Of a DNA stretch of 64,000 nucleotides, positions 44,839 to 64,000 are shown piece after piece; positions within the stretch are counted from its first letter, which is position 1; each line of letters begins with the position of its first letter. A program made the position numbers and the translations under genes. The notes beneath the pieces were generated by a model. It searched no databases. It was not told the origin of the DNA and was given only the letters and a program-made list of their open reading frames with translations. The stretch comes from Peptostreptococcus anaerobius VPI 4330 = DSM 2949 (GTDB lineage: Bacteria; Bacillota; Clostridia; Peptostreptococcales; Peptostreptococcaceae), in contig NZ_KB906613.1 in assembly GCF_000381525.1 (NCBI RefSeq), positions 1 to 64,000 of the forward strand. Direction: 5' to 3'.

Positions 44839-44852
44839 TACATCAACTCCTA

Positions 44853-45764
44853 CTAACCTACAAATATATCCTTTGATTCTAGCTTGTCCTCAAACAATGA
44901 ATTTATAATATCTGTAACTATCTCCTTCTCATAGATATCAAAGGTCTTATTGACAAGCCCCATATTAAGGGCCTCTTTTATATCAAGCCCCTTCTTCATG
45001 ATGTCTATGCTGGCAAATAAGCCTCTAAGGTCAACAGTCTTTGAAGATATCTCTGCATTTAGGGACTTGTTCTGTAGGTCCATAAATAGCTGAACAAATA
45101 GATCCCTATAACCATCCTTTAGGGCAAATTCATTCTTTAATATCATGTCAAAGTTCTCCCTGGTGATTGTAGGCATATCTACGACCATAAACCTAGATAC
45201 TAAAGCCTCATTTAACTCCTTAGTACCTATATAGCCATAATTCATAGTACCTATAAACCTAGTAGCATCATCAAGCACTATCTTGTCATAGCCTGGTAGA
45301 TCAATAGTCCTTCTGTAGTCAAGAGCTGAATATATAACTGCTAGAGAGTCGTTCTTTGCCATATTTATTTCATCAAAAACAGCAAAACCGCCCTCTGTAG
45401 CAGCCCTGTATACAGGCCCCTGTCTTAGGACTACTTCATTGTTTACAAAAGTATCAGTCCCCAAAAGACTTGATGCATCAGTCGTTATATTCATAGATAC
45501 ATTCCAAAGTGGTCTGGCAAACATCATTGCTAGATTTTCAGCCAAGACATTCTTACCTGTAGCCTTTGGACCACTCAGTAGTATATGGTAACCTGCAAGT
45601 AGGGCCCCTATAGACTTGGCAAGTACATCCTTACCATAATATTTATATTTCGGATTAGGTATCCTATCCTTAACTTCTTCATTTATCTTATAAAATTCTC
45701 TAAATTTCTCAAGTTCAAGTACCAGCTTATCTGGTACACCTTGTTCTAATAAAAATTCCTTCAC
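44853..45764 (-). CDS. MoxR-type AAA+ ATPase
   Basis: 303-residue AAA+ ATPase, likely partner of the VWA protein after it. Walker A reads GPKATGKNVL (near 64), with Asn where Ser or Thr is usual. Walker B is AVFDEIN (near 130), and sensor GTMNYG and arginine-finger region SRFMVVD are present. The start is placed at the GTG at 45764, which has GAGGGGAT upstream; the ATG at 45785 has no ribosome binding site. The 162-base gap before sbcC's end side (45786-45947) shows no clear terminator or promoter. Confidence 0.83.
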   Translation of the reverse strand: MKEFLLEQGVPDKLVLELEKFREFYKINEEVKDRIPNPKYKYYGKDVLAKSIGALLAGYHILLSGPKATGKNVLAENLAMMFARPLWNVSMNITTDASSLLGTDTFVNNEVVLRQGPVYRAATEGGFAVFDEINMAKNDSLAVIYSALDYRRTIDLPGYDKIVLDDATRFIGTMNYGYIGTKELNEALVSRFMVVDMPTITRENFDMILKNEFALKDGYRDLFVQLFMDLQNKSLNAEISSKTVDLRGLFASIDIMKKGLDIKEALNMGLVNKTFDIYEKEIVTDIINSLFEDKLESKDIFVG

Positions 45765-45947
45765 TATTATCCCCTCAATCTTCATTTTTTATACAATAGC
45801 ATATTACCCATCTTGCTGTGTTAATAAGCATTTTCATTAGTACTTTTAATCAACCAACCTATTGTAACATTAGATTTGCCAGTTGTAAACAATTCCACCC
45901 ATATAGGATAAGGGATAATGAATGTGTAGACTTATTTTTATACTCTT

Positions 45948-48671: not shown

Positions 48672-49878
48672 GGTCTTCCTCCCTTCCAAGCAAGCTAGAA
48701 AACAAGTCCACAAGACTCGCTCTAGGTTCCAAACCCTCATTTTCTTTTTTATAAAAGTCTACAAAATAGTCATTAATCCTAGACCTATCAAGGTCTATCA
48801 ACTTCTCTTCTTCCTGGTCTATTTGAGATTTTATTATAGGTTTTATCTCTATTATATTCTTCATAAGTGACTTCATAGCCTTTATGGTATCCTGACTAAT
48901 GGACTCCTCAGTCTCTATTTCAAAATATGAGAACACATCCTGGTCTTTCTTTTCTTGACATATGTCAAGGGCGTGGCTCACAGATTTTGCCCTGTATACC
49001 TCAATATTCTTGTAGTTGTTGATATATACCCTATCGACCTCTGCCTCTGATCCAGCCTCAATATCAACTATATATACAGATTTTGCAGAATCCCTCTCAG
49101 ACTTGGAATACTGGATGGGACTGCCTGAATAGTAGGCATTGTAGGTCTTTGACATCCTCTGTGGCTTGTGGATATGACCAAGGGCAGTATACTGTGACTC
49201 CCTTGGTAGCTGGTCCTTTTCAACTAATAGACCACCCCCAAGCTCTATCCTCCTCTCAGAATCAGTTATAGAGCTGCCCACCACAAATATATGGGACATA
49301 GCAATATTTATCTCACCATCCCTGTAATTTTCCTCTAGGCTCCTAAACAAGTGGCCGACCTTATTTGAGTAAGAAGTCTGCATATCCTCCTTGTCCAGAT
49401 AATTCTCAAATGCATGGTTGAGCCTCGACTCACTAGGATAGGGAATACTTATTATATTGGCTATCTCGTCCCTTATTTTTATCTTTGTAAATCCCTCTTT
49501 TGCCTCTAGTATCTCAAATCCGTCATATACAGCCTCACTTGCCTTTGACATTGGGTAGCCCAGTATCACAATCCCCATTCTAGCCGCCATTGAATTGATG
49601 GCTTCAAGCCTATCTGGATTGTCGTGGTTACCTGCTATTACCATAACACATCTCTTGCCATTTTCAGCCAGCTTAACCAAGGTATCGTAGAACAAGTTCT
49701 CAGCCCTAGCTGGTGGGTTGTAGGTATCGTATACATCTCCAGCCAAAAGAACTAGGTCTATATCTCTTTTTCTCACTATATCGACTAGGTCTAGGCAAAA
49801 TTTTTCCTGTTCCTCAATCCTTGAAAAACCCTCCAAACTCTTTCCCAAGTGCCAGTCTGATGTATGTAAAATCTTCAT
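48658..49878 (-). CDS. sbcD: SbcD, exonuclease nuclease subunit (Mre11-like)
   Basis: Manganese-dependent nuclease partner of SbcC. The phosphoesterase motifs are clear: HTSDWHLGK (near 5), LLAGDVYD (near 45), AGNHDNP (near 82) and SHIF and LGHIHKPQ further on. The 406 residues include a C-terminal region that would contact SbcC. AGGAGG precedes the ATG. It starts 15 bases after addA and overlaps sbcC. Confidence 0.96.
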   Translation of the reverse strand: MKILHTSDWHLGKSLEGFSRIEEQEKFCLDLVDIVRKRDIDLVLLAGDVYDTYNPPARAENLFYDTLVKLAENGKRCVMVIAGNHDNPDRLEAINSMAARMGIVILGYPMSKASEAVYDGFEILEAKEGFTKIKIRDEIANIISIPYPSESRLNHAFENYLDKEDMQTSYSNKVGHLFRSLEENYRDGEINIAMSHIFVVGSSITDSERRIELGGGLLVEKDQLPRESQYTALGHIHKPQRMSKTYNAYYSGSPIQYSKSERDSAKSVYIVDIEAGSEAEVDRVYINNYKNIEVYRAKSVSHALDICQEKKDQDVFSYFEIETEESISQDTIKAMKSLMKNIIEIKPIIKSQIDQEEEKLIDLDRSRINDYFVDFYKKENEGLEPRASLVDLFSSLLGREEDHEAN

Positions 49879-49893
49879 ATTACCTCCTCTATC

Positions 49894-52800
49894 CTAACAT
49901 TCAAGTAGCCTGCCAGCACTGAACATATATAGGTACTTTTTGACAACCTTCTTACCAGATATATCTTCTATGGCCCTCTTGTATAGGTCAAGTTGGACCT
50001 TGTATCTATCTATTAAGTCTTGGTCTGACCTATCACCAACATAATCTGTCTTGTAATCTAATAGGATTATATCTCCATCTTTGTTCTCATAGAACAAGTC
50101 AATTATTCCGACCATCATCATGGATTCGTCATCCATTATCCCCTGGTCCTTGTATATATCCTTCATCTTGATATTATAATTGATAGCAGTTTCCTTGTAT
50201 AGGTCACCCCTCTTGTCAGCCTCTAATATATCTAGGTATATATTTGACCTTATAAATCTCACTATCCATGATACATTTACCGTATCTGCCTCTTGTCTTA
50301 AAAGGATATTCTTGTCCACCATGGAGTCAATCTGCCTGACAATCTCTTCTCTTATAGGTCTATCATTTTCATTGCTAAGACCAATCATATCTAGACTCAT
50401 CTGCTGGTAGGCTACTAGGTCTTCAAATGCCTTAAAATCTATCAACTGCATCACAAGGTGGAATATTGTACCCCTCTCATTTGCCTTGTAATCGTGCTTT
50501 ATAGGTTCACTCGCTGATGATTTACTATCATGAATAAAACTAGGAGACTTAAGATCATTTGATGGGATAGTCTTGTATAGTTTGTCGTGCATTTGGTCAT
50601 TTTTCTCCTGGGCCATGAGCTTCTTGATATCCGTAACAGATATACTAGAAGGCTTGGAAGCACTAGACTTGAACCTATAGTCAAAATTCAGTATCTCATT
50701 TATCATGTCCTTGTCTAGTGGTCTCTTATCATCTTGTGATTTTTCACAAGACATTAATTTTTTATCGTCTATTAAATCTGCATGATCTATTAATATTTTA
50801 TCGTCTATTAATTCTACATGATCTATTAATTCTTTACCATATTTTGTTTTTTTAATCTCTACTGAATCAAGATTTTCCATTTCTATAACTTCCAAATCTT
50901 TTAACTTATCCAGGTATTTTTTAGAAACATCATACTTGTCGGTAAATTTTATAATCCATTTACAATCCTTATAGCCCTGGTACTTGGCCACACAAGACCT
51001 AACATCTAAGCAGTCTTGTCTTTTTTCAAGATTTACAATAGTAGGCATTATCCAGTCCATATAGGTCATTGATTTAAGTATGGAGCCAGGGTCTATATTT
51101 CCGTCCAAGTCTCTATAGGTATTTTTCCAAGCTTCAAGATTCTTGTCTATGTCCTTTAGGCAGCCTGTAAATATTAGTTTTTCCTTGGCCCTAGTCATGG
51201 CAACATAGAGCATCCTCATCTCTTCTGACTTTACTGCCCTTTGCTTGGCCTTTTTTAATATAGTCATAGCAGTCGTATTGTAGAATATTTTTTTGTTTAT
51301 ATCTATATACTTTGGTCCATAGCCTAGTTTGTGGTCAAGGTCGACCACACTAGTATCTCCCCTTAGGTTAAAATTCTTATCCATATTTGCAACTATTACA
51401 ATTGGAAATTCCAAGCCCTTAGACTTATGTATGGTCATTATCCTCACAAGGTCAGCATCTTCTGAAAGTAGACTTGCCTCTTTAGGTTCACTTGAAGTCA
51501 TCTTGAGCCTCTCTATATAGTGAAGGAAATTAAATAGCCCTTTGTGTGAGCCTGCCTCGTATTTTTTTGCTTTTTCATGGAGCAAAATAAGGTTGGCCTG
51601 TCTTTTTTCTCCCATAGCTAGACCTTCAAGATACCTGTAATATCCAGTATCCTTGTATAACTTCCACATAAATTGGTCTATAGGCAGTAAAAAAGCATCC
51701 TGCCTGTATTTTTCTAGCCTATCTAAAAACTCAGTCAGCTTAACTACTAGGTCCTTGTCATCGCTAGTCTCTATAAATGTCTTGATAGCTTGATAATAGC
51801 TAGACTCCTTATCAGCCAGCCTAATCCTAGCTAGTTCTTGGTCTGTATAGTTGAAAATAGGAGACCTCATAGTAGCTATCAGGGCTATATCTTGGATAGG
51901 ATTGTCTATTACCTTCAGTAGATTTATAATAGTCGTCACCTCTATTGTAGAAAAATATCCTCCACCTGACTCACTATAGGCTGGTATGTCCCTCTTTATA
52001 AGCATATCCTCAAGTATATTGGCCCTATTTTTCGTAGACCTAAATAAAACAACTATATCCTTGTACTTAACCGGCCTATAATCATCTTTCTCCTTGTCAT
52101 ACACCACATACCTAGATTTTTCAGGACTTGGGTTTACTATATCATCTATGATATTGGATATTTCCATGGCTTCAAACCTAAATTTTTCCATGTCCTTTAT
52201 GTCTTCTATATCCTGCTCATCTAGACCCTTTGTTTTAATATCCAGCAGACTTTGACCTAGGTCTTTGCTATCTATATCTTTTGTATCAAGTATATGGACT
52301 TCTACAGGGCCCCCTACATGGCTATTTTCAATATTATTTTCCTTAAAAGTTGCACCTGGATTTAGCCTTTCTTCATCTGTATAATCTATATCCCCTGTCT
52401 TTGATGTCATTATCTCCTTAAAGACATGGTTGGATGCTTCAAGGATTTCTTTTCTACTCCTGAAGTTTTTGTAAAGGAGGATTTTTCTATCCCTCATACT
52501 TGGTGGTTGGCTTTCCATTTTTAAACCTGTCTGAACACTACTATCTTTTGACCCTGTTTGAACATCATCTTCATAGATATCGTAGGTCTTATACTTGCCC
52601 ATAAATATCTCTGGCATGGCCTGTCTGAACATATATATACTCTGTTTGACATCACCCACCATAAACCTATTTGGTCTATCCTTTCTTGATACCATATCAA
52701 GTATTGTCTCTTGGACTAGGTTGCTATCCTGGTATTCATCGGTAAAAATTTCTTGATACCTCTCTTGGTAGGACCTCGCTATATCCGAAGCTACTATTCT

Positions 52801-53997
52801 TCCGTCATCGTCTGTGCTTGTAAGTATATCAAGGGCAAAGTGTTCAACATCAGAAAACTCGACTATGGATTTTTGTAGTTTTTTTCCCTTGTAATATGCC
52901 CTAAATTCCCTAACAAGGTCTGATAAGGCCTTCATATGTGGATATACTAGTTCATTTTCCCTTTCGATAACCTTCTTATCGATCCTAAGATCGTCAAGAA
53001 TAGATTTTACAGATTTTTTGATAGCGTCAAATGTATCCTTCAGGGTCTTGTAGTCTTCTTTGTATTCTTTCTTTATCTTGGGTGCAATACCACTTGTATT
53101 TATATAGGAAGTCTTTAGCATATTCATAATAGAGCCTAAGGCTTCATCCACCTTGCTACTAGGGTCACCCTCCTTATTTTTATATTCTAAATACTCTCCC
53201 ATTTTTTGAATCATAACTTCAATTTTAGACCTATAGTCAGCCATAAAATCATAGTGCTTTTCATATCCTGGAATCTCAGCTAGGTCTCTTAGGACTTCTC
53301 TTAATTGTAGATTCAAGCTATTAAGTCCTATACTAGCTTCCTCAATCTGAGGTATTATCATTGAATCTATATAGTCATCCTTGTTCGGACTTACTGGATT
53401 AAATCTTTCTGCAGCCTCATCAAGCCACAAGTCTGGGTAGGGGGTTGAATCAACAAAATTACTAATTGTAAACACCAGGTCTATCAGATTATTATCATTT
53501 GTCCTTGTATTATAAGTATCTACAAGATTCAGGAATTTTTCATCAGCTTCTTGATATTTTTTCTCAAAAAAATCCTCTATAGTCTCATTTCTCAAAATCT
53601 CTATCTCTGCTGTATCGCCTATTCTAACAGAAGGGTCTAGGTCAATAGCATGGAAGTTAGTCCTCATAACACTATTGCAAAATGAGTCTATTGTCGTTAT
53701 GTCTGCCTTGTTAAGTAACATCCTCTGCCTCTGAAGTCTCGTGTTATCCGGGTCTAAGGCAAGTTCTTTTTCTATAGCAAGACCAACCCTTTCTCGCATT
53801 TCCCTTGCAGCAGCCTTGGTAAAGGTAACCACCAACAACCTATCTATATCCACTGGATTTACAGGGTCTAGTATCAGCCTTATTATTCTCTCTATCAATA
53901 CCGCAGTCTTACCAGATCCAGCAGCTGCTGCAACTAGTAAATTGGCATTTCTATGCCTTATTACTGACTCCTGGTCCTTGGTCCACTTATTTGCCAT
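49894..53997 (-). CDS. addA: AddA, helicase-nuclease subunit A
   Basis: ATP-driven helicase and nuclease of AddAB, which trims double-strand breaks for RecA. Walker A AAAGSGKT is at about 24-31, Walker B TDEYQDSN near 415, motif III QSIYMFRQ, motif V TIHKSKGLEFP and motif VI RMLYVAMTRAKEKL. The C-terminal RecB-like nuclease has GIIDLFY and LLDYKTDY (near 1310). At 1367 residues it is about 100 longer than relatives such as the Bacillus protein (about 1232). The extra length includes a repetitive segment near 1030-1130. It overlaps addB by 11 bases. Confidence 0.95.
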   Translation of the reverse strand: MANKWTKDQESVIRHRNANLLVAAAAGSGKTAVLIERIIRLILDPVNPVDIDRLLVVTFTKAAAREMRERVGLAIEKELALDPDNTRLQRQRMLLNKADITTIDSFCNSVMRTNFHAIDLDPSVRIGDTAEIEILRNETIEDFFEKKYQEADEKFLNLVDTYNTRTNDNNLIDLVFTISNFVDSTPYPDLWLDEAAERFNPVSPNKDDYIDSMIIPQIEEASIGLNSLNLQLREVLRDLAEIPGYEKHYDFMADYRSKIEVMIQKMGEYLEYKNKEGDPSSKVDEALGSIMNMLKTSYINTSGIAPKIKKEYKEDYKTLKDTFDAIKKSVKSILDDLRIDKKVIERENELVYPHMKALSDLVREFRAYYKGKKLQKSIVEFSDVEHFALDILTSTDDDGRIVASDIARSYQERYQEIFTDEYQDSNLVQETILDMVSRKDRPNRFMVGDVKQSIYMFRQAMPEIFMGKYKTYDIYEDDVQTGSKDSSVQTGLKMESQPPSMRDRKILLYKNFRSRKEILEASNHVFKEIMTSKTGDIDYTDEERLNPGATFKENNIENSHVGGPVEVHILDTKDIDSKDLGQSLLDIKTKGLDEQDIEDIKDMEKFRFEAMEISNIIDDIVNPSPEKSRYVVYDKEKDDYRPVKYKDIVVLFRSTKNRANILEDMLIKRDIPAYSESGGGYFSTIEVTTIINLLKVIDNPIQDIALIATMRSPIFNYTDQELARIRLADKESSYYQAIKTFIETSDDKDLVVKLTEFLDRLEKYRQDAFLLPIDQFMWKLYKDTGYYRYLEGLAMGEKRQANLILLHEKAKKYEAGSHKGLFNFLHYIERLKMTSSEPKEASLLSEDADLVRIMTIHKSKGLEFPIVIVANMDKNFNLRGDTSVVDLDHKLGYGPKYIDINKKIFYNTTAMTILKKAKQRAVKSEEMRMLYVAMTRAKEKLIFTGCLKDIDKNLEAWKNTYRDLDGNIDPGSILKSMTYMDWIMPTIVNLEKRQDCLDVRSCVAKYQGYKDCKWIIKFTDKYDVSKKYLDKLKDLEVIEMENLDSVEIKKTKYGKELIDHVELIDDKILIDHADLIDDKKLMSCEKSQDDKRPLDKDMINEILNFDYRFKSSASKPSSISVTDIKKLMAQEKNDQMHDKLYKTIPSNDLKSPSFIHDSKSSASEPIKHDYKANERGTIFHLVMQLIDFKAFEDLVAYQQMSLDMIGLSNENDRPIREEIVRQIDSMVDKNILLRQEADTVNVSWIVRFIRSNIYLDILEADKRGDLYKETAINYNIKMKDIYKDQGIMDDESMMMVGIIDLFYENKDGDIILLDYKTDYVGDRSDQDLIDRYKVQLDLYKRAIEDISGKKVVKKYLYMFSAGRLLEC
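50762..50833. repeat. Two 36-bp tandem repeats inside addA
   Basis: Near-identical 36-base units at 50762-50797 and 50798-50833, each made of two similar 18-base halves. They encode LIDHVELIDDKI and LIDHADLIDDKK (about residues 1055-1079), just before the nuclease domain. In frame, so the protein tolerates them as a linker. Confidence 0.85.
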
Positions 53998-56900
53998 TGT
54001 CCTCTTCCTCCTTTCTACTATTAAAATTGTATAGGGTCATCCTATTTATTATATCCTCTTCTTTTCTTATCCTCCTATATTCGTCCTCTTCAAACTGACA
54101 TATAGCCCTGTACTCGCAGTAGTCACAGCCAGTCCTACCATCCGTCTTGTAGGGTCTTACATCTATATTTCCCTTGTATATCTGACCTGCAATCTCTTCA
54201 GACTTCTTTACTACATACCTAGATATAATGTCAAACTCTTCCTCATCATAACCCTTCATTTTCTTTGGAAAGCTTCCATTAGTATTTAATTTAATAGGCA
54301 GTATATCTGATTTCATACCGGTATTATCTTCAAATCCCGTATCCATAATCTTGTATATATCAACATCCTTGACTACTATACCCATCAGCTTATTTTCCCT
54401 TAATATTTCAGGGGCTTCACTCGCTACCAAATCATCTAAATCACCTATATCAGACAGCTTTACTTGTGGACTCTTTACCCTGCTATAGAGTAGGGCCGCC
54501 GGTTTTAACTTTATTCCTGGTCTAGTAAACTCTGACCTTTTTGAATAAAGGATGGCATTCATATACATAAATAGCTGTAGCTGTAGACCTGCCTCAACCA
54601 TCTCTAAATCGACATCATGGCTGGACAACTTGTAGTCAACTATACTTATATATTCTGTATTGGTTTCTTGGTCAATATAGCTATCGACCCTGTCTATCTT
54701 ACCATTGACAAGACCCTCCCTAGCCCCATCAATATTGAGCCTGATAGGTTCAAGTTCAGACTTTATTCCAAAAGTAACTTCTAACCCCTTAGGTCTTAGC
54801 TTGCCACCCCTGACCTGCTTGCCTATTGCATCTATGGAATCCACTAGGGTCCTATTTAGCCTTCTTACCATATACCTGTATTTTTCGGATGTATTGAGTA
54901 TATAGCTAGACCTAGCATCTAGTATTCTAGCCCCCAAAACTTCCACCTCTCTATTGATATATGATAGGTCAACATCAGCCCAACTGATATCATTGGACCT
55001 AATCCTCCTAAGAAATAGTTCCAAGACCTTGTGGTAGTAATTACCGGCATCCATAGGACTAAATTCATACACATCCCTCGGCCTTGCCCTTAGTCCATAC
55101 CTAGCAAAATACGAATAAGGACATGAGGAGAACTTCTCTAGCTTGGAAACACTAAATATAGGTGCCCCGTATATAAGGTCGGCTATATCGATGCTTATTT
55201 TAGGTGTCTTATCTTGACTGAAATCTATCTCCCTATCTCCAAGCTTAAATCCAATATCGTATACCTGGTCAGATAGGTCCTCTTCACCTATCTGAGGAAA
55301 TATCTTCTTTATCTTATTCACAAGGCTAGATGCCATCATACTATTACCTTCTACGTCTCCCTTTGGATAGGTAACATAGAGCCTTTCTCTAGCTGTAGAC
55401 ATAGCCCTATAGACAAGAAATTCCTCATCATACATCTTGCTGACAATATCAGAGTCGAACTTCACACCCTTCTCAAGTAGGTTGGACTTGTCCATCTCAG
55501 TTATAAGACTTGTGTCGCTCACCATCTTAGGGAATACACCCTCATTTGTCCCAATCAAAATTAGGACCCTAGTATCCGGATTTTTCATCCTGTCTACACC
55601 AGTTATAAATACCTGGTCTCTTGAAGGAGGAATAATCCCCAGCTCATGACCTTGGAATTGAAGGTCCAAGAACTTGATATACCTCTCTATACCTATTACT
55701 TCATCACCCATAAATTCAACCATCTCATCTAGAACATCTACAAATATATTCCATGCCTGAGAATACTCCCTAGCCCTGTAGTTGTCTTCTTTTCTTTCAA
55801 AAGTTTCAACTAGGTCTACTATTTTCTTGTCTAGGCCTATATCTAAGGTAAATTCATACAGGTAACTTGATATATCCCTTAGGGTGTTTTTTCCCTTTAG
55901 CTTTTCATTTAACCTTATTATAGGCTCCATAACAAGGTCCTTTATCTTGTTTATCCTATCCTGTACTTCAATATCTACAGGATTATCTTCTACACTATGG
56001 ACTACAGGAAGGTCCCATCTATCCTCAAACCACTTCTTGCCCCTGATTCCATTTGCTAAAACATAGTTTTCTAACAAGGCTATATCATCGCCATCTAGGT
56101 CCAAAATTCCTGATTTTAGGTAGGTAAACATGGACTTGTATGAGTAGTTTGTATTTTTCATATCTAAAATCGACAGTATAAAGACTAATACAGGGTTGGA
56201 CTGGGCACTTATCTTGTCATCCAAAAAGTAGTTTATCTTGTAATCATCAAAAATAGACTTGGTAATATGGGCATAAGAATCAATATCTCTTGTAGCCACC
56301 ATAATTTGCCCAAACCTATAGCCCTTGTTTTTTACAAGATCAAGTATTACTGAAGCTATATATTCAACTTCCCTGTGCCTGTTTTCAAAGGAGCTTATTT
56401 TAATACCGAACTTGTCTATACTTAATTCGTCATCGTTTGAATTATCTATATTTAATTTGTTATTGCCAAACTCTTCTATACTTAATTCGTCATTGCTTGA
56501 CTTGATAGTATCCCCTGTATATATCTTTGGATTGAAAAACCTTATTTCACTCTCTAAAAACCTAAGTTCATCTTTTTTATAGTATTCCTCATCATCAACC
56601 CTGATATCCTCAAGCCTCTTGACCTTATTGTCTATGCAAAACTTATTTATCTTCATGATAGTAGAGTTTGTCTTAGCAAATACCCCCCTATAAGAATTTA
56701 TATTCCTCATATCTGTCATAAGGGAAATATATATTTTTTTTGATAAGAGTATCAATTTTTCTATTACTAGGTACTGAACAGGTGTAAAACCTGTAAATTC
56801 ATCTATAAATATACTGGCACCATCAAGCGGTTCATAGGATCCTATCAATCTTGAAAACAATACAGTACCATCCTCTGAATCCATATATTTATCCTGCATT

Positions 56901-57409
56901 AGGTCCTCGTAGGCTCCGTATATCCTTGATATATCATCCAACTTACTGGCCAATGCCCTATCATCCACCTTACTTGATAGGCTATTTATATAGTCTACAT
57001 CCATGTCATTTTGCTTAAACTCAATCACAAGATCGAGTAACTTGGCTACAAGTCCCAAGTCATTTAGGGATGGTCTGAAGGTCTTTAGATCTTTCTCAGA
57101 CTTTTCTAGAGCCCTGTATACTAGCATGGTCCTAGCAGATCTGGATATCTTTTTTTCCTTTAGACCAGACACATTTGTAAATACTATATTGCTAAGTGTA
57201 GAAAAGCTGACTACCCTTATCCTAAAATTTGGGTCATCTTGACTAAGTAGTCTTTGGCTCAACTTCTTTTCCATCTCATATGTGTACTTTTCCGGTACCA
57301 ATATATATATCGGTTTTTTTGATTTGGATTTAGCCTCTTCAAAGGCTAGGTCTAAGACCTTTTTGGTTCTATCAGCGGGCATCCTACCCCATATAAATCC
57401 AAGTGCCAT
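53987..57409 (-). CDS. addB: AddB, helicase-nuclease subunit B, with a degenerate Walker A
   Basis: Second AddAB subunit: inactive helicase fold, Chi recognition and a nuclease with an iron-sulfur cluster. The Walker A of Bacillus AddB (GRSGSGKT) reads GRMPADRT here (residues 8-15), so ATP binding is doubtful. The iron-sulfur cysteines are kept: one in SSCPYSYF (near 780) and three in GCDYCEYRAIC (near 1105). Nuclease residues appear in GKIDRVDSY and IVDYKLS (near 935). 1140 residues is normal. Residues about 303-333 are three 10-residue repeats. AGGAGA precedes the ATG. The gene is 117 bases after the upstream nuclease gene. Confidence 0.94.
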   Translation of the reverse strand: MALGFIWGRMPADRTKKVLDLAFEEAKSKSKKPIYILVPEKYTYEMEKKLSQRLLSQDDPNFRIRVVSFSTLSNIVFTNVSGLKEKKISRSARTMLVYRALEKSEKDLKTFRPSLNDLGLVAKLLDLVIEFKQNDMDVDYINSLSSKVDDRALASKLDDISRIYGAYEDLMQDKYMDSEDGTVLFSRLIGSYEPLDGASIFIDEFTGFTPVQYLVIEKLILLSKKIYISLMTDMRNINSYRGVFAKTNSTIMKINKFCIDNKVKRLEDIRVDDEEYYKKDELRFLESEIRFFNPKIYTGDTIKSSNDELSIEEFGNNKLNIDNSNDDELSIDKFGIKISSFENRHREVEYIASVILDLVKNKGYRFGQIMVATRDIDSYAHITKSIFDDYKINYFLDDKISAQSNPVLVFILSILDMKNTNYSYKSMFTYLKSGILDLDGDDIALLENYVLANGIRGKKWFEDRWDLPVVHSVEDNPVDIEVQDRINKIKDLVMEPIIRLNEKLKGKNTLRDISSYLYEFTLDIGLDKKIVDLVETFERKEDNYRAREYSQAWNIFVDVLDEMVEFMGDEVIGIERYIKFLDLQFQGHELGIIPPSRDQVFITGVDRMKNPDTRVLILIGTNEGVFPKMVSDTSLITEMDKSNLLEKGVKFDSDIVSKMYDEEFLVYRAMSTARERLYVTYPKGDVEGNSMMASSLVNKIKKIFPQIGEEDLSDQVYDIGFKLGDREIDFSQDKTPKISIDIADLIYGAPIFSVSKLEKFSSCPYSYFARYGLRARPRDVYEFSPMDAGNYYHKVLELFLRRIRSNDISWADVDLSYINREVEVLGARILDARSSYILNTSEKYRYMVRRLNRTLVDSIDAIGKQVRGGKLRPKGLEVTFGIKSELEPIRLNIDGAREGLVNGKIDRVDSYIDQETNTEYISIVDYKLSSHDVDLEMVEAGLQLQLFMYMNAILYSKRSEFTRPGIKLKPAALLYSRVKSPQVKLSDIGDLDDLVASEAPEILRENKLMGIVVKDVDIYKIMDTGFEDNTGMKSDILPIKLNTNGSFPKKMKGYDEEEFDIISRYVVKKSEEIAGQIYKGNIDVRPYKTDGRTGCDYCEYRAICQFEEDEYRRIRKEEDIINRMTLYNFNSRKEEEDNGK
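56411..56500. repeat. Three 30-bp tandem repeats inside addB
   Basis: Units at 56411-56440, 56441-56470 and 56471-56500. First and third are nearly identical; the middle one has diverged. They encode 10-residue acidic units of the type NDELSIEEFG. Confidence 0.8.
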
Positions 57410-57423
57410 ACCTATCTCCTATC

Positions 57424-57483
57424 TATAATCTTATTTATAATCTTATTTATAATATCATTTATAATATCATTTATAATTCAGAA
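57424..57483. repeat. Five 12-bp tandem repeats just upstream of addB
   Basis: Units TATAATCTTATT (two copies), TATAATATCATT (two copies) and TATAATTCAGAA, beginning at 57424 with a partial sixth. They end 15 bases before the addB start codon and fill the space after the small nuclease gene. Confidence 0.85.
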
Positions 57484-57526
57484 TATAATTTAACCTAGAA
57501 ATTGTATTTTAATATATAGTTTCTAT

Positions 57527-58249
57527 CTATAATATATAATTACTATACGATTCTTCATCTCTTATCTCTTCAATCATGCTCCATATCTTTTCATGATTTT
57601 TTTGGTGCAGGTCTTCTGTATATACCAACTTGATATTATTATCATAAGTCGGTTGGTAGTAGTGCATGACCATATTAGAAAAGTCAATCTCACGTCCTAG
57701 GGTCTCCTTACACACATACATATATACACAGGTCTGCATCTTTGTCTGGGCATCTATCTGACTCATTCTCTTTCTTTCAGTCTTCCAGTCCCATATATCT
57801 ATCTTATATAGTTTATTATCCTTGTATATCTCAACCAAGAGGTCTAGCATTATCACTATCTGACCCTTGTACTCTATTTCAAGCTCCGGCCTAAAAATTA
57901 CATCCTTGCCAAAGTGCCTTTGGTAGGCATTTTTTATCTTCCTAATTTTTTCAAGCTTTGGGTAGTCCTCAAGTGATTTGGCTAGTGGATCTCCCTTTAA
58001 TAGGGGCAGGTCCATAAACATCCTCTGACATAATAGGTGAAAGTCCCTACCATAGGACATATTTTCCTCGTACAACCTGTCCTTTTCACTTGAATCTGTC
58101 CAAAACACTCCATTTATATACTTCTCTACAAACTCATCCCTATTCCTAATCCAGGTATTTAGCATATTCTGACTAAAAATAAGGTGGTCTAGCCTATATT
58201 TCAATTGGTCTCTTGATATAGATATCTTATTTTGCCCCAAAATAGTCAT
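57527..58249 (-). CDS. Small RecB-like PD-(D/E)XK nuclease
   Basis: Stand-alone 240-residue nuclease. The RecB-family residues can be placed: H71 (DFHLLCQ), D136 (IVIMLDLLVE), D154 and K156 (DIWDWKTE), and a following Gln-Tyr helix (QTKMQTCVYMYV). This is the size of just the nuclease domain of AddA or AddB. Only scattered cysteines are present, so the iron-sulfur staple of AddB is absent. The ATG shares a base with the stop of the helicase gene before it (TAATG), with GGGAGG upstream, so the two are translated together. Most likely it is the nuclease arm of a complex with that helicase. Confidence 0.82.
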   Translation of the reverse strand: MTILGQNKISISRDQLKYRLDHLIFSQNMLNTWIRNRDEFVEKYINGVFWTDSSEKDRLYEENMSYGRDFHLLCQRMFMDLPLLKGDPLAKSLEDYPKLEKIRKIKNAYQRHFGKDVIFRPELEIEYKGQIVIMLDLLVEIYKDNKLYKIDIWDWKTERKRMSQIDAQTKMQTCVYMYVCKETLGREIDFSNMVMHYYQPTYDNNIKLVYTEDLHQKNHEKIWSMIEEIRDEESYSNYIL

Positions 58250-60540
58250 TACTTACCTCCCTTAATCCTATTATCAGATATGTATTTTGATAAAATATCA
58301 AAAAAATATGAGTTCTTTTTCTTAAAATAGTAGTTCATGGACTCATTGAACTTAGACCTTGAGTTGAGGATCACAAGACCTCTTTTGGCCCTAGTAATGG
58401 CAACATACAAGAGCCTAGTCCTCTCACCTATAATCTCCGTCTTCAATTCCTTCTCATAATAGCCTATTTTCTTGCAAGACTTATTGACTATATCATCAAT
58501 TTCCTTATTGACAAAGGCCTCAGGATACTTAAATCCTTCTCTCAGGTACTTTCTATCAATCCTAAAGTAGTCATTTACACTAGATGGGAAATCATTTGAA
58601 CTCACACCACATACTATGACCAAGTCCCACTCCATGCCCTTTGACTTGTGCATTGTAGATATACTAATACTTCCAGCTTCGACCTCATGCTCACCTATAT
58701 CGTATATACTTGCCACCAAGGTCTCAAATATCCTAGTGTTCCTAGGTGCCATTGCTATTGATATCCTGTTTAAGTCTGCTGATTCATATGTTTTTAACTT
58801 GCTTAAGTAAAAGGCCAGATAGTCTATAAGGCTTTTCTCTTGGCTGCTAATATTTAGGCTATCACCTATCAACTTTATAAGGCCGTATATATCTACCTTT
58901 GAATATTCCAAGACAGACCTTATCCTAGCCCTATCTTCTGCTAATTTTTTTACAAAAGGCTTTTCTATTAAGTTCTCCAAGAGCTGCTTGGCCCTTGTAG
59001 CTAGGTCATCAAAATAGAGGTCATCATAAAAATACCTCTCAGTATCTATTTTATCAAATAATTTTTCTAGCCTCTCATGCTCAATATCAGATAGCTCATA
59101 TGTATCCGCCCTATCTATGTAGGCTTCAAATAACATCTGCTTGAATATATCATAGTCGCTAGGGTCTATTATAAAGTCTACAACTAGCTTTATCTTATAT
59201 ATTATCTTCATATTTTCTTGGGAATCATTGCCTATTTTTTCATAGGGGATATCCTCAGAGTCCAACTTCTTGGCCAGGTCATTGACATCAAAATTTGAAA
59301 AATATAGGACCCCTATTGAATAATTTGGAAACTTTTCCCTTGTGTACTTGATAGTTGATACTACATATGCCATCTCCTGGTTAAAATCATCAAGGCTCTT
59401 AGAATTTATGCTATAGGACCTTGTTACAGGATTTTCCTTATAGCCCTTGTCCTTTTCAACTTCTTCTATATAGATTTCTTCAAGCCCACCATAGTAGTCC
59501 TTGGTCATATCCGATTTGACTATTTCAACTAGCTTGTTGGCTGTATTTATGATGTCTTTTGAACTTCGACCAGCCATATTCATTGTATAGGACTTGTCCG
59601 CCCTCTTACAAAAATCCACAAAAAATTTAGGGTTGGACCCAGCAAAGGTAGTCGTGATACTCTGGTTTACATCACCTACTCTTACTAGGTTCATTTTTGC
59701 ACTGACCATATCATTTTCTGATATAGACCTGCTCACATTTCTTGATATTATCTCTATTATCTTGCCTTGAATCTCATTGGAGTCCTGGCACTCATCCTCA
59801 AATACATAGGCATACCTCTCTTGGTAGTAGGCAGCAACCTCTGAATCAGACTCAAGTATCTTATAGGCCATGACCAATATATCATCATAGTCTATATAGG
59901 CGTTACTCCTTAGTTTTTCCTGGTATAGGTTAAATATAGGCGATATAATTGTCATTATTCCCTTGTAATCAGGCTCATTGACTATATTCTTAAGGTCAAT
60001 ATCGTCAATACCAGAATACTTTAGGAGTTTGATAGAATTTAAAACCATAAAGGTAAATTCCTTATACCACCTGTCTACCTTGTCCTCATTATTTCTAAAG
60101 CCCTTTTCCATAAAGCTCAATATCTTATTAGAATTATTATCCTGACTCTCATATTCTTCAATGGCAGAATTTATCAAAAGTGACTTTTTATAGTCATCTA
60201 TAATTTCCGTTTCCTCACTTACAAAGGCTATATCCGTATTTTCCTTTATTATTTTCATGGCTAAAGAATGGATAGTCATTACCTCAAACCTAGACTTTGG
60301 AAGGTCTTTGTCAGAAAGTATCCCCCTTATCCTAGACTTGAAGTTATTTACGGCACTATTCATATAGGTAAGAACCAGTATTTTCCCGTCCCTATTTTCA
60401 TTTTCCATATCTTCAATTAACTGGGCTACCAAGTTGGTTATTATAAAGGTCTTGCCCGCTCCCGGAACAGCCTGTATACCCATTGAACCAGACTTGTACC
60501 TCATTATCTTCTTTTGGTCTTTTCTATAGTTAATAGACAT
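58249..60540 (-). CDS. UvrD/AddA-like superfamily 1 helicase without nuclease domain
   Basis: 763-residue ATP-dependent helicase. Motif I AVPGAGKT is at 24-31, Ia LTYMNSAVNNFKSRI, Walker B EDECQDSN (near 255), motif III GDVNQSITTTF, motif V STMHKSKGMEWD (near 620) and VI RTRLLYVAITRAKRGL (near 725). DECQDSN resembles the DEYQDSN of the AddA encoded nearby. There is no C-terminal nuclease; the next gene supplies one. GTGGGGGTGG precedes the ATG, 12 bases after the upstream gene. It is not the housekeeping PcrA type by pattern. Confidence 0.88.
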   Translation of the reverse strand: MSINYRKDQKKIMRYKSGSMGIQAVPGAGKTFIITNLVAQLIEDMENENRDGKILVLTYMNSAVNNFKSRIRGILSDKDLPKSRFEVMTIHSLAMKIIKENTDIAFVSEETEIIDDYKKSLLINSAIEEYESQDNNSNKILSFMEKGFRNNEDKVDRWYKEFTFMVLNSIKLLKYSGIDDIDLKNIVNEPDYKGIMTIISPIFNLYQEKLRSNAYIDYDDILVMAYKILESDSEVAAYYQERYAYVFEDECQDSNEIQGKIIEIISRNVSRSISENDMVSAKMNLVRVGDVNQSITTTFAGSNPKFFVDFCKRADKSYTMNMAGRSSKDIINTANKLVEIVKSDMTKDYYGGLEEIYIEEVEKDKGYKENPVTRSYSINSKSLDDFNQEMAYVVSTIKYTREKFPNYSIGVLYFSNFDVNDLAKKLDSEDIPYEKIGNDSQENMKIIYKIKLVVDFIIDPSDYDIFKQMLFEAYIDRADTYELSDIEHERLEKLFDKIDTERYFYDDLYFDDLATRAKQLLENLIEKPFVKKLAEDRARIRSVLEYSKVDIYGLIKLIGDSLNISSQEKSLIDYLAFYLSKLKTYESADLNRISIAMAPRNTRIFETLVASIYDIGEHEVEAGSISISTMHKSKGMEWDLVIVCGVSSNDFPSSVNDYFRIDRKYLREGFKYPEAFVNKEIDDIVNKSCKKIGYYEKELKTEIIGERTRLLYVAITRAKRGLVILNSRSKFNESMNYYFKKKNSYFFDILSKYISDNRIKGGK

Positions 60541-60552
60541 ATTCCACCCCCA

Positions 60553-62220
60553 CTAAAAAATCCTGTCCATAAGTTTTTTATAAAACATATTCTCTTGCTC
60601 ATACCCATTTATGGCAGTATCCGAAGTCATAATATATACGTTTTTGTACTTTGAAAGAACTCTATCTATTTCTAGGTCTATAGAATACTCCATAAGGTCC
60701 TTGTAAAACAAGCTTATATTGTCTTTTGTGATATTAGACAATATAGAATCATCAAAAAATCCAATCTGGCTATAAATTGAATCCTCTAAAACTGGATCAT
60801 ATCTCTTAGAGCTTGCGTCGAATACTATTAGGTGGTTCCTTTTAGTGTCAAGACTCTTTAAATCTTCTTTTGTCATAAGCAATATAGATGGCATCGCCAT
60901 ATTTTCTAGTTTTACCTTGCTAGAAGAATAATAGGAAATAGCCTGCCTCATATAATTATACTTGGACTCGTCATCTACCAAATCTCCAAGCTCCTCAATC
61001 AGGTCTGTCATCTTGGCTACCATACTTATAGACTCAGGTGTTTGATTTACATACTTTTTATAGAAATTCTTTACAAACTCCGAGTCAGACATCCTATACT
61101 CATAGCTAAACTCAGCCTCAGCTATACTTTCTTCAATCCTATCTATGCTTATAAGACTTGGATCATCACCGTCATCTATGCTATCTAGGTCCAATACAGG
61201 TGACATATTATTCCTTATGTTGTTTCTTACTTCTTTTAGGTATTTTTCCATATTTTTCCTAAGGTCTATATAGTTCTTGTCCTTGTAGACCACAGTCAAT
61301 AGTTCAATCTTTTCTTCATCAGATAAGATATACTCACAGTCCTTGTAAATAGCTAGTGCTGCTAGGCATACCACAGCTTCCAGGTTTGAACCAAAATTTT
61401 TGGATACTGCTATTGGTCTAATGTCTAAGGTTGGACTAATGTCTATATCCATAGATATTATATCCTCATTAAGACTTGGAACCACTATAGCTATATCATC
61501 CTGACTTATACCCTTGTCATTTTTTAGGCTATAAATCAAGTTGATCAGGCCATTTTTCATATCTTGATAACTAGAGTAGTCATGGTTTTGAATGATATTC
61601 CTAGTCTTACCTTCAATCCTATCATCTTTATTTATTTTATTACTTCTAAATTTTTCAGATATAGAATTATCACTCACTATATTTTTACCTATAGCCTTCA
61701 AATTGTCCGGATAATTCGCACTATCCAAAAGTCCACAAAAATTCTCATATATCATAGGTCTGTCATAAATATTATTTTTATTTAGGATAGACCTGTACTC
61801 TATAATTAAATTGTTTAGGTCGTTGTAGGTCTGGTCAGTTTTTTTCCCTCTTTTGAACCTAGCAATTCTTTTTGATATAGCATCAACTGGTATCTGATTT
61901 TGAACTGACATTTCCATTATTTTATAGGCAGTTCTTGCAATACTTATACTAGTAGAATTAATTGTATTAAAGTAGGCATCAAATACCCTCCTATCATCAA
62001 TTATCTTCTTTAGTAGGCAAAGAGAACCATCAAGAGATATCACTTTAGGTCTTATACCATCACCTACAAGAGGCCAGTAGATGTCCACTTGATCAATTAT
62101 ATAAGAATCATAGGATGAAAATACCACCGACATAGACCAGTCGCATGACCTTTGTGAGTAATACTTTTCCTTTTCTATTAAACTTTCGATATTTTTCTTA
62201 TATAGGTTAATATTTTTCAT
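60553..62220 (-). CDS. AddB/RecC-like protein without ATPase motifs (putative scaffold)
   Basis: I do not recognise a named family. The 555 residues have no Walker A or B. The layout follows a superfamily 1 helicase or AddB: an N-terminal alpha/beta part with VISLDGSLCLLKKI, a helical part, then ISQDDIAIVVPSL (near 240) like the second RecA fold. The end (NHLIVFDASSKRYDP followed by KYKNVYIMTSD) parallels AddB (TRVLILIGTNEGVFP followed by ERLYVTYP). It is the first gene of a tight run with a helicase and a RecB-like nuclease. I infer an inactive helicase-fold partner, comparable to AddB or RecC. GAGAGGA precedes the ATG. Confidence 0.65.
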   Translation of the reverse strand: MKNINLYKKNIESLIEKEKYYSQRSCDWSMSVVFSSYDSYIIDQVDIYWPLVGDGIRPKVISLDGSLCLLKKIIDDRRVFDAYFNTINSTSISIARTAYKIMEMSVQNQIPVDAISKRIARFKRGKKTDQTYNDLNNLIIEYRSILNKNNIYDRPMIYENFCGLLDSANYPDNLKAIGKNIVSDNSISEKFRSNKINKDDRIEGKTRNIIQNHDYSSYQDMKNGLINLIYSLKNDKGISQDDIAIVVPSLNEDIISMDIDISPTLDIRPIAVSKNFGSNLEAVVCLAALAIYKDCEYILSDEEKIELLTVVYKDKNYIDLRKNMEKYLKEVRNNIRNNMSPVLDLDSIDDGDDPSLISIDRIEESIAEAEFSYEYRMSDSEFVKNFYKKYVNQTPESISMVAKMTDLIEELGDLVDDESKYNYMRQAISYYSSSKVKLENMAMPSILLMTKEDLKSLDTKRNHLIVFDASSKRYDPVLEDSIYSQIGFFDDSILSNITKDNISLFYKDLMEYSIDLEIDRVLSKYKNVYIMTSDTAINGYEQENMFYKKLMDRIF

Positions 62221-62326
62221 ATCTATTGTCCTCTCTTTGCTACTTGTGTTGCTTATATTATATCATATACTTCTATTATTATTTTACATATAGTATCTTG
62301 ATTTATCTTATCGACTTTTCTAAAAT

Positions 62327-62365
62327 AAAAAAGACGATAAAATTTTACTTGTATCGTCTTTTTTG
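62327..62365. terminator. Rho-independent terminator, both directions, after the cation transporter gene
   Basis: AAAAGACGATA pairs with TATCGTCTTTT, giving six T on either strand. On the minus strand it ends the cation transporter transcript. The stretch 62221-62326, before the AddB-like gene, is AT-rich and probably holds that operon's promoter, but I see no good match. Confidence 0.88.
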
Positions 62366-62379
62366 AGTATATAATTGTA

Positions 62380-62479
62380 TATAACTTAAAAATTCTTTTT
62401 TAATTATAATTTGAAAATTGTTTTTTTCTTATAACTTAAAAATTCTTTTTTAATTATAACTTAAAAATTCTTTTTTTCA
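62380..62479. repeat. Four 25-bp tandem repeats after the cation transporter gene
   Basis: Units at 62380, 62405, 62430 and 62455, beginning TATAACTTAAAAATTCTTTT. Units 1 and 3 are identical, unit 4 differs only at its end, unit 2 is diverged. They lie between the stop codon and the terminator, so they are transcribed as 3' untranslated RNA. Confidence 0.9.
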
Positions 62480-62521
62480 TCATAACTGTTAAATTGGTCG
62501 CTTTTAAACTGTTTTTTCGTA

Positions 62522-63637
62522 TTAATCAGTTGTATCAAGATCTAGGGTTATCCTAACCTCATAATCCCTGTATTTTTCCATGACCCTAATCTTCATCTCT
62601 TCAAGTATTTCTTCCTTGTTGACACAGTCAAAGTCCATTATTAGGTCAAAGTTTATTACCTTGTTTTCGCTATCTAAATGAAAACCATGCATCTGGAGAA
62701 TATGTTCTCTAGACATAACCATCTTGGTAATGCTGTGCTTGATCTCTTGAGCCATATCATCAGTTGTATTTATAGAATATATACCTATAGCCGCCATCAA
62801 TATTCCGTACTCGTTCAATATCCTATCTGCTATTTTTCTCTCTATATCATCTATCATACCAGCATTCCAATAATCAGGTATCTCGATATGGGCAGATCCA
62901 ATTACCATCTCTGGACCATAGTTATTTATTATAAGGTCATATACACCTTCAACACCTTCAAATTCCATTATTGTACGCTTAATTGAGTCAGTAAGTTCTC
63001 TTTCAGGTCTTTCTCCAACAATATTACTAGATGCCTCCATTATAGAATCTACACCAGCTTTTATAACTACAAAAGATATACCTAAGGCTAGCCATGATTC
63101 TATACCCACACCTCTGAACATATATATTAGACCAGCAATTATTGTCGCTGTAGATATAACTGCATCCATCTTCGCATCAACACCCGAAGCCTTTAAGGAA
63201 TCAGAGTTCAGTTCAATACCCTTTTTTTGAGTATAATTTCCCAGGAATATCTTTACAACTACAGCCAACAACATTATACCTAAAATCATATTTGTATAGC
63301 TAGGCTTTGTAGGATTTATTATCTTCTTTATAGACTCTATACTAGCTGCAACACCAGCATATAAGACTATTACTGCAACTACCATACCTGCTATATATTC
63401 TATTCTTCCATGACCCATAGGATGCTTTTTATCTGGTTTCCTATTTGCTATCAAGGTCCCTATAATTGTAACTACAGATGAAAGTGAATCAGTTAGGTTG
63501 TTGATACCGTCCATAGTAATAGCTATAGATCCGGATATAAATCCAAGCCCAACCTTAGTTCCCGATAGTATTAGATTTGCTATTATACCTATTATACCTG
63601 TTTTTATTATTTGCCTTTGACGACTTTCTATTTCCAT
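62522..63637 (-). CDS. Cation diffusion facilitator (divalent metal/proton antiporter)
   Basis: 371-residue metal efflux protein. Six membrane helices fill residues 15-205, with the metal site in DGINNLTDSLSS (two Asp, near 43 and 47) and HPMGHGRIEY (near 77). A C-terminal cytoplasmic domain (about 215-371) is longer than usual. The pattern with His and Asp is compatible with Zn, Fe or Mn; the metal is not determinable here. GGGGTGG precedes the ATG. A TATAAT at 63718-63723 (minus strand) is a possible promoter. It lies directly downstream of the rRNA operon. Confidence 0.92.
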   Translation of the reverse strand: MEIESRQRQIIKTGIIGIIANLILSGTKVGLGFISGSIAITMDGINNLTDSLSSVVTIIGTLIANRKPDKKHPMGHGRIEYIAGMVVAVIVLYAGVAASIESIKKIINPTKPSYTNMILGIMLLAVVVKIFLGNYTQKKGIELNSDSLKASGVDAKMDAVISTATIIAGLIYMFRGVGIESWLALGISFVVIKAGVDSIMEASSNIVGERPERELTDSIKRTIMEFEGVEGVYDLIINNYGPEMVIGSAHIEIPDYWNAGMIDDIERKIADRILNEYGILMAAIGIYSINTTDDMAQEIKHSITKMVMSREHILQMHGFHLDSENKVINFDLIMDFDCVNKEEILEEMKIRVMEKYRDYEVRITLDLDTTD

Positions 63638-63801
63638 TGCTTACTACCACCCCTATATATTTTTTCATTCCTTTAATTTTACACTTTTTAGATTTAATTT
63701 ACAAGAATATTATCCCCATTATAGGCTTTGTTTACATACATTTAACATATCTTGTATGATTAAAAATACCCTTTCAAATATATCAAATAATATTAACTAT
63801 G

Positions 63802-63831
63802 TAAAAAAGAGTCTAGACAAAATCTAGACTC
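63802..63831 (-). terminator. Rho-independent terminator of the rRNA operon
   Basis: On the minus strand GAGTCTAGA (63831-63823) pairs perfectly with TCTAGACTC (63817-63809) over a five-base loop, followed by six T. It lies six bases after the 5S gene. Confidence 0.95.
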
Positions 63832-63837
63832 TAATCA

Positions 63838-63952
<115 letters not shown>

Positions 63953-64000
63953 ATTATTTAATTAAAGGTTTGTACCCTCAAAACTGAATATTTAATGAGC
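63953..64000 (-). other. 23S-5S spacer of the rRNA operon
   Basis: On the minus strand the spacer has ATTCAGTTTTGAGGGTACAA, a typical Firmicutes spacer sequence just before 5S. The 23S gene must lie beyond the window edge. Confidence 0.75.

Follow-up and report, generated by a model that had tools for sequence, protein, structure and literature searches.

We analyzed a stretch of 64,000 nucleotides (the window) from Peptostreptococcus anaerobius VPI 4330 = DSM 2949 (NCBI RefSeq assembly GCF_000381525.1, contig NZ_KB906613.1, positions 1 to 64,000) and, within it, a run of three closely packed genes that we call X, HEL and NUC. They are candidates for a helicase-nuclease that acts on DNA ends and carries its working parts on three separate chains. 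The genes addB and addA follow on the same strand, where the order reads X-HEL-NUC-addB-addA-sbcD-sbcC:

60553 to 62220, minus strand: X, an open reading frame (ORF) of 555 amino acids (aa); degenerate protein resembling superfamily 1A (SF1A) helicases, with a putative AddB/RecC-like role and no Walker A motif in the genus
58249 to 60540, minus strand: HEL, 763 aa; UvrD-type SF1A helicase with intact motifs and no nuclease domain
57527 to 58249, minus strand: NUC, 240 aa; free-standing PD-(D/E)XK (RecB-family) nuclease that keeps its catalytic residues and, in the genus, has lost its iron-sulfur (Fe-S) cysteines
53987 to 57409, minus strand: addB, 1140 aa; immediately follows the trio
49894 to 53997, minus strand: addA, 1367 aa; NCBIfam TIGR02785 at 989.8 bits, above cut-off

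X and HEL are separated by 12 bases and HEL and NUC overlap by 1 base, so the ORF list agrees with the coordinates and spacing (12 and -1 bases) given in the first-pass annotation, an earlier reading of this DNA. None of the three ORFs is interrupted in the window or in 8 further loci of the genus.

Folds, motifs and ancestry of the three proteins

The window's X has no Pfam match above cut-off and none in NCBIfam or PADLOC, and a PDB sequence search with the X profile returned nothing convincing; three of the seven X relatives scanned do exceed the Pfam UvrD-helicase cut-off. An AlphaFold2 model of the window's X, built from 32 sequences, is of medium confidence (mean pLDDT 64.1, pTM 0.54). 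Its top solved matches in Foldseek are AddB chains (3u44_B, E 1.0e-8), followed by UvrD, AdnB, AdnA and RecC (e.g., 8b1t_C, E 8.7e-5). In VIA-align it superposes on AddB over 386 residues (Z 15.4, root-mean-square deviation 7.2 Å), all of them within the helicase-like part at AddB 17-690; Rep and UvrD each reach Z 14.9.

The X of Halonatronum gave a model with pLDDT 90 and pTM 0.86 and a complete SF1A (1A-1B-2A-2B) fold, matching UvrD 4c2t at E 1.3e-18 and AddB at E 1.4e-17. VIA aligned it with UvrD 4c30 (Z 27.9, 532 residues, 9.1 Å, the domains standing at other angles), with AdnB 9np6 (Z 24.0, 590 residues, 4.5 Å) and with AddB (Z 21.4). The first-pass annotation had staked its proposal in advance on a helicase-like fold in the 555-residue protein, and such a fold was found, both in the AddB matches of the window's X (E 1e-8) and in this whole SF1A relative. 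Since the Halonatronum protein matches UvrD (Z 27.9) as well as AddB (Z 21.4), X is, as judged from these models, a general SF1A relative, and "AddB-like" describes its state and its place rather than a special kinship.

Profile-profile comparison gave scores for X (all phyla) of 160.4 against HEL, 76.4 against AddB and 54.9 against AddA, with shuffled maxima of 23.4-25.5 (30 column shuffles per comparison); a RecJ negative control stayed inside its null (19.8, shuffled maximum 20.7). An X alignment drawn from the home family, Peptostreptococcaceae, reached AddB weakly (probability 19, E 0.0012), and the score rose to 76 with X from all phyla. These profile scores, together with the fold matches and the degenerate motifs, give X the AddAB-type feature of a partner with an inactivated SF1 helicase fold. 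X lacks the set of SF1A catalytic motifs I, II (DExQ) and VI: motif II is degraded, reading DNLEE in the consensus of other Bacillota, and no motif VI was seen.

The first-pass annotation had called X "ATPase-less," which is right for the window's X, where no Walker A pattern is present, and wrong for most X outside the home family, which keep the motif. The pattern is likewise absent from 33 of 39 family X (present in 6); it is present in 24 of 28 X of other Bacillota, where three of the four misses are probably late-start ORF calls and one has GSGR, and in 26 of 32 named X, where the misses include two Romboutsia and partial ORFs.

HEL has Pfam matches above cut-off to PF00580 UvrD-helicase (4e-39) and PF13361 UvrD_C (1.4e-25); motif I reads AVPGAGKT in the translation, and motifs II, III, V and VI were also located. 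Pfam found no PDDEXK match in HEL or X, the nuclease being a separate ORF. In a tree of 53 helicase cores (a quick search, with some long branches and one long unclassified row), 28 HEL from Bacillota, Chloroflexota and Cyanobacteria form one clade with SH-aLRT support of 100, next to clades of 15 AddA/RecB (93) and 9 PcrA/UvrD/Rep (100). HEL thus stands apart from AddA/RecB and is therefore no recent copy of AddA; going by this tree, it is a third SF1A lineage rather than an AddA paralogue.

NUC matches PF12705 (PDDEXK_1) above cut-off (1.9e-8), and its GxxFH, E, D, DWK and QxxxY residues, the PD-(D/E)XK motifs, are invariant across 41 sequences. The earlier identification of a superfamily 1 helicase beside a RecB-like nuclease is borne out by these Pfam domains in HEL and NUC. 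The NUC profile scores 43.0 against the AddB nuclease (null maximum 20.4) and 25.1 against that of AddA (22.2), with the RecJ negative control at 15.2 (22.2), suggesting that NUC resembles the AddB nuclease more than AddA's. NUC of other lineages has cysteines as expected for an AddB/Cas4-type Fe-S cluster. Within the family, the C-terminal cysteine pattern is found in 32 of 32 members read from other genera and in 0 of 9 from the window's genus (window included). In an alignment of 29 AddB, the adjacent AddB retains its cysteines where the NUC of this genus (loci L083-L090 and the window) has lost them. PDB 9iab and 9iac, considered as a cyanobacterial NUC, were rejected: the NUC profile matches them at 1.1e-6 and 5.8e-6, and a Nostoc NUC has no significant PDB match. 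Neither code turned up in the open-licence literature searched.

Distribution and gene neighborhoods

A search of 100 relatives within the order located HEL (E 1e-30) and NUC (E 1e-3) in 57 genomes apiece, all among the 61 Peptostreptococcaceae genomes; neither was found in the 39 genomes from other families of the order. Four family genomes (G011, G023, G026, G032) lack both genes. Of 40 family loci read, 39 have an X of 463-731 aa ahead of HEL (the remaining one stops at a contig end), all 40 have NUC after it, and in 34 addB comes right after NUC, often overlapping it. A profile made solely from non-family X recovers the gene upstream of HEL in those same 39 loci (lowest 56.7, median 357), so that the family X count is not circular; the window's X scores 60.2 bits with it (E 2.9e-18), and the best other family ORFs score at most 49.

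The six family loci that lack addB come from three genera (g6, g15, g22). A TIGR02785-type AddA (E 1e-40) was not found in 8 genomes of these genera that have HEL and NUC, which may carry a divergent AddA or RecB instead. All four trio-less family genomes have AddA above cut-off. Taken together, the 47 family genomes examined (of 61) comprise 35 with both systems (34 loci with adjacent addB and the window itself), 8 with the trio and no TIGR02785-type AddA, 4 with AddAB only, and none with neither.

The window's X used as a single query is a weak probe that found 11 of 100 relatives; the idea, taken from that search, that X is a genus-level oddity was overturned by profile searches. With the X profile, 391 genomes of the class gave 19 with X at E 1e-20, 8 of them Peptostreptococcaceae and 11 from elsewhere (including one contig-end piece), and 299 genomes of the phylum gave 19 at E 1e-10, own genome included. 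Weaker hits of that profile land on PcrA-like ORFs, near motif II, and Ilyobacter shows a weak X-like match that is not accompanied by the trio. Other Bacillota families supplied 29 loci picked by X alone, and the trio is contiguous in 26 of them. The first-pass annotation had also made its case depend on the three genes co-occurring in other genomes, and they do so widely, with the trio contiguous at 39 of 40 loci from the family and 26 of 29 from other Bacillota. Packing is less tight in L141 (9118-15844), where two small opposite-strand ORFs were called between X and HEL.

Scanning named genomes with HEL gave at least 80 loci, which is not a census. Among the matches listed, 44 loci have HEL above 400 bits (mostly Chloroflexota, two cyanobacterial): X lies upstream in 25, NUC downstream in 19, and the full trio is present in 16, followed by RecJ in 12 and by AddB in 2; one of the 44 ends before X and seven before NUC. 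The other 36 loci were left uncounted; they comprise most of the cyanobacterial loci, fragments, and 18 loci that resemble other UvrD proteins (L232-L234, L236-L244, L246-L251). In the complete genome of Pelolinea submarina, X, HEL, NUC and a recJ-type gene form one operon-like run, and two UvrD_C proteins were found at E 1e-6, one PcrA-like and the other HEL itself. The same four genes stand in a row, all matched by profiles, on the 56-kb plasmid pSR56 of Salinibacter ruber M8 (Rhodothermota; NC_014028.1, L308, 4756-12639), with an XRE-family regulator and a small hypothetical gene ahead of them; there X is annotated as a hypothetical protein and NUC as a PD-(D/E)XK nuclease family protein (nuc match E 5.3e-48). 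In cyanobacteria HEL stands alone and the trio is unlinked: for 12 HEL loci, 9 genomes were searched, and X and NUC were each found in all 9. In Nostoc CHAB 5824 (L323, 1341-5738), NUC, a 213-aa gene (an acetyltransferase by eye) and the recJ-type gene lie together, with X and HEL elsewhere.

That fourth gene, which we call RecJ', comes next in 21 of the 29 Bacillota loci, in one of them as a fragment cut by the contig end, and at a distance of one ORF in a further locus; of the remaining seven, two break off after NUC, two lack a called NUC and three (L145, L146, L159) show different genes. All 11 copies examined beside the trio lie above the NCBIfam recJ TIGR00644 cut-off. In a scan of 20 genomes, two RecJ genes were found in each of the 11 whose trio has a RecJ beside it (directly in 10, one ORF away in G694). 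Four family genomes have a single RecJ, as do G240 and G517, both without RecJ next to the trio; G421 has one plus a 307-aa partial copy, and both cyanobacteria have two. A survey also reports two recJ copies in many cyanobacteria (PMC5101192).

A tree of 39 RecJ proteins, some on long branches, divides them with SH-aLRT support of 98. On one side are 19 operon RecJ, one RecJ from each of the 2 cyanobacteria and the single RecJ of G517; on the other are 15 housekeeping RecJ (those of the window's genome and E. coli among them) and the two other cyanobacterial RecJ. By this tree, the operon RecJ' is a dedicated second RecJ lineage, separate from the housekeeping one, to which the single RecJ of the window's genome belongs. 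The housekeeping RecJ of two Bacillota (L314, L315; G620, G646) are unusually long, at 1083 and 1101 aa. The earlier claim that the trio sits beside a complete addAB is true of the window and most of the home family, while elsewhere the usual neighbor is a dedicated recJ.

Among 298 Bacillota genomes (own excluded), the trio and TIGR02785-type AddA are anti-correlated: AddA (E 1e-100) was found in 2 of 18 with X vs. 184 of 280 without (Fisher p 5.5e-6, in samples that are phylogenetically non-independent). The thought that the trio simply substitutes for AddAB outside the family was dropped: in at least 26 of 35 genomes with the trio there is also a UvrD_C protein no shorter than 900 aa, in most cases AddA/RecB-like, those of G366 and G415 (about 1,600 aa) being large proteins that may be something else.

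A candidate DNA end-resection unit and its alternatives

What the genomes give directly is gene order, co-occurrence, folds, motifs and the separate ancestry of HEL and RecJ'; our reading, which we consider reasonably probable, is that X-HEL-NUC is an ATP-dependent helicase-nuclease of three chains, which prepares DNA ends (double-strand breaks, collapsed forks) for RecA. The earlier suggestion of AddAB-like parts spread over three chains draws support from the folds, the motifs and the gene order, with complex formation deduced from these. The proposed complex, its activity, directionality, strand choice, product and role are modeled on established knowledge of SF1A helicases, AddAB and RecJ. 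HEL would be the sole motor and, since it is an SF1A helicase, would pull one strand 3'-5'; X, an inactivated SF1A helicase and presumably no motor, would clamp and split the duplex like AddB and RecC; and NUC, an AddB-type nuclease on a chain of its own, would cut the displaced 5'-ended strand. RecJ belongs to a family of 5'-3' single-strand exonucleases, and in the ancestral unit RecJ' would finish degrading the 5' strand, so that a 3' tail remains for RecA. Because recJ is the usual next gene outside the home family and comes from a dedicated second lineage, the ancestral unit looks like X-HEL-NUC-RecJ', performing end resection in the manner of AddAB or RecBCD with the parts on separate chains.

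In the home family, the trio has no adjacent RecJ' and usually lies directly upstream of addAB, where it would probably be a second, partly redundant or hand-over resection route. The window's copy, lacking RecJ', Walker A and the Fe-S cysteines and standing beside addAB, may be a derived version.

Several observations weigh against an end-processing trio. We infer the association of X, HEL and NUC from linkage and co-occurrence, and the model of the window's X has the medium confidence given above (pLDDT 64.1). In the genus, X diverges faster than its neighbors (median identity 33% vs. 48-53%), and, given the loss of the Fe-S cysteines and the single housekeeping RecJ, the window's copy could have a changed or reduced function. 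The large UvrD_C proteins kept by most trio genomes count on the same side, as do some incomplete sets: the cyanobacterium G776 has NUC only in pieces (E 2.5e-12); and the set is looser in Chloroflexota, where, among genomes without X beside HEL, a strong X lies elsewhere in 4 of 6 and weak hits only in 2 (G778, G780), and, among those without adjacent NUC, a strong NUC lies elsewhere in 7 of 8 and a weak one in 1 (G786).

The first alternative, which we regard as unlikely, is that the unit repairs gaps, stalled forks and flaps, with HEL-X opening forks, NUC trimming flaps and RecJ' widening gaps in a RecFOR-type process. RecJ is established as the nuclease of the RecFOR pathway, a point also found in PMC1193525. 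HEL carries no fused nuclease, and where a large UvrD_C protein is kept (at least 26 of 35 trio genomes) end resection is often covered already, both of which would suit such a role. X, however, has the fold and the degenerate motifs of the end-binding partners AddB, RecC and AdnA; eight trio genomes of the family have no TIGR02785-type AddA that we could find at E 1e-40, and no family genome among the 47 examined lacks both systems.

About equally improbable, in our view, is that the home-family trio is an accessory of AddAB, binding, regulating or loading it, or that all five proteins form one machine. The position of addB directly after NUC in most family loci speaks for such a link, as do the Fe-S cysteines lost in the window's genus and the pattern of Walker A, which is missing in 31 of 31 full-length X beside addB and present in 6 of 6 family X away from it. 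Adjacency is no proof of a complex, however, and the Walker A contrast comes from few independent lineages (three genera off addAB); moreover, the trio persists without adjoining addAB in other families and in the eight family genomes without TIGR02785-type AddA.

The first-pass annotation had raised phage defense or plasmid control, and we found this unsupported: the genes are conserved family-wide and mostly in one place, though one copy is on a plasmid. An anti-phage role, such as that of a Gabija-like helicase-nuclease pair, therefore seems to us very unlikely. HEL does score 170 bits against the PADLOC GajB model and the four genes do occur together on the Salinibacter plasmid, but GajB is itself a UvrD-type helicase and the score does not discriminate; PADLOC, run on the three window proteins, gave no match of X or NUC to GajA (ATPase-TOPRIM). 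HEL and NUC are present in 57 of 61 family genomes, unlike patchy defense genes. The window's X had no match in 50,697 phage records, although one X sequence has little power as a query; for HEL there are 56 matching phage records, and the ten matches listed are at most 25.5% identical and resemble other UvrD proteins. That the trio is a decaying addAB duplicate with no present function, as the fast evolution of X and the loss of Walker A and the Fe-S cysteines in the window's genus might suggest, is scarcely credible when the HEL motifs and NUC catalytic residues are intact, the ORFs are open in the window and 8 genus loci, and HEL belongs to a lineage separate from AddA.

Among the closest known systems is AddAB (RexAB), with which the proposed end-processing trio shares one active and one inactive SF1A helicase, an AddB-type PD-(D/E)XK nuclease and, outside the window's genus, the Fe-S cysteine pattern in the nuclease; the window's X aligns to AddB residues ~15-690. 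The trio differs in that both AddAB subunits have a C-terminal nuclease, whereas X and HEL have none fused to them and the one nuclease found, instead of two, is on its own chain; in that HEL lies outside the AddA/RecB clade; and in the dedicated RecJ' that adjoins the trio at most other Bacillota loci read. It would resemble RecBCD in being a helicase-nuclease of three chains, one of them an inactive helicase (RecC in RecBCD, of the fold class of X), but its nuclease is not fused to a motor. A search of the three window proteins found none that is RecD-like (best recD score 19.2 bits, for HEL, against a cut-off of 310).

AdnAB is an SF1A pair with one active motor, and both of its subunits carry nucleases; X has AdnB and AdnA among its best fold matches, whereas the trio has a single, separate nuclease. 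Gabija (GajAB) shares the combination of a UvrD-type helicase with a nuclease, to which the trio adds an inactive helicase and RecJ', and the trio has no patchy distribution in its home family. The fourth gene is a RecJ by its NCBIfam score, yet of a lineage that stands beside the housekeeping RecJ, with 11 genomes having both.

The first-pass annotation recognized no named system here, and we likewise found no description of the gene set in the open-licence literature (subscription papers were not covered), so that it is seemingly undescribed. We would propose, tentatively and with less than even confidence, that X-HEL-NUC-RecJ' is an ancient fourth class of presynaptic machine for resecting DNA ends beside RecBCD, AddAB and AdnAB, with a built-in RecJ paralogue, occurring in Bacillota, Chloroflexota, Cyanobacteria and, on a plasmid, Rhodothermota, and that it is also the missing double-strand-end processor where RecBCD and AddAB are lacking (Pelolinea, some large-genome cyanobacteria). 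How broken ends are processed in bacteria without RecBCD or AddAB is an open question; recBCD is less conserved in cyanobacteria according to one survey (PMC5101192). A candidate machine of four recognizable genes makes the question directly testable in such bacteria. If the proposal is right, such machines can keep helicase, inactive helicase and nuclease on separate chains, a point relevant to the assembly history of AddAB and RecBCD.

Other features of the window

The window's addB scores 797.6 bits with TIGR02773 (E 1.7e-239), below the curated NCBIfam cut-off of 903.7, and 211 bits with Pfam ADDB_N, above cut-off. A Pfam scan identified the remaining neighbors of the trio as addB and a cation-efflux gene. 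Scans for promoters and terminators gave results close to shuffled means, and an RNA family scan of 44000-64000 found nothing besides one 5S rRNA gene, at 63837-63953 on the minus strand, near the contig end and upstream of the cation-efflux gene. AddA (49894-53997) is long, at 1367 aa, and has a repetitive charged stretch, KELIDHVELIDDKILIDHADLIDDKK, that precedes a weakly scoring nuclease domain.

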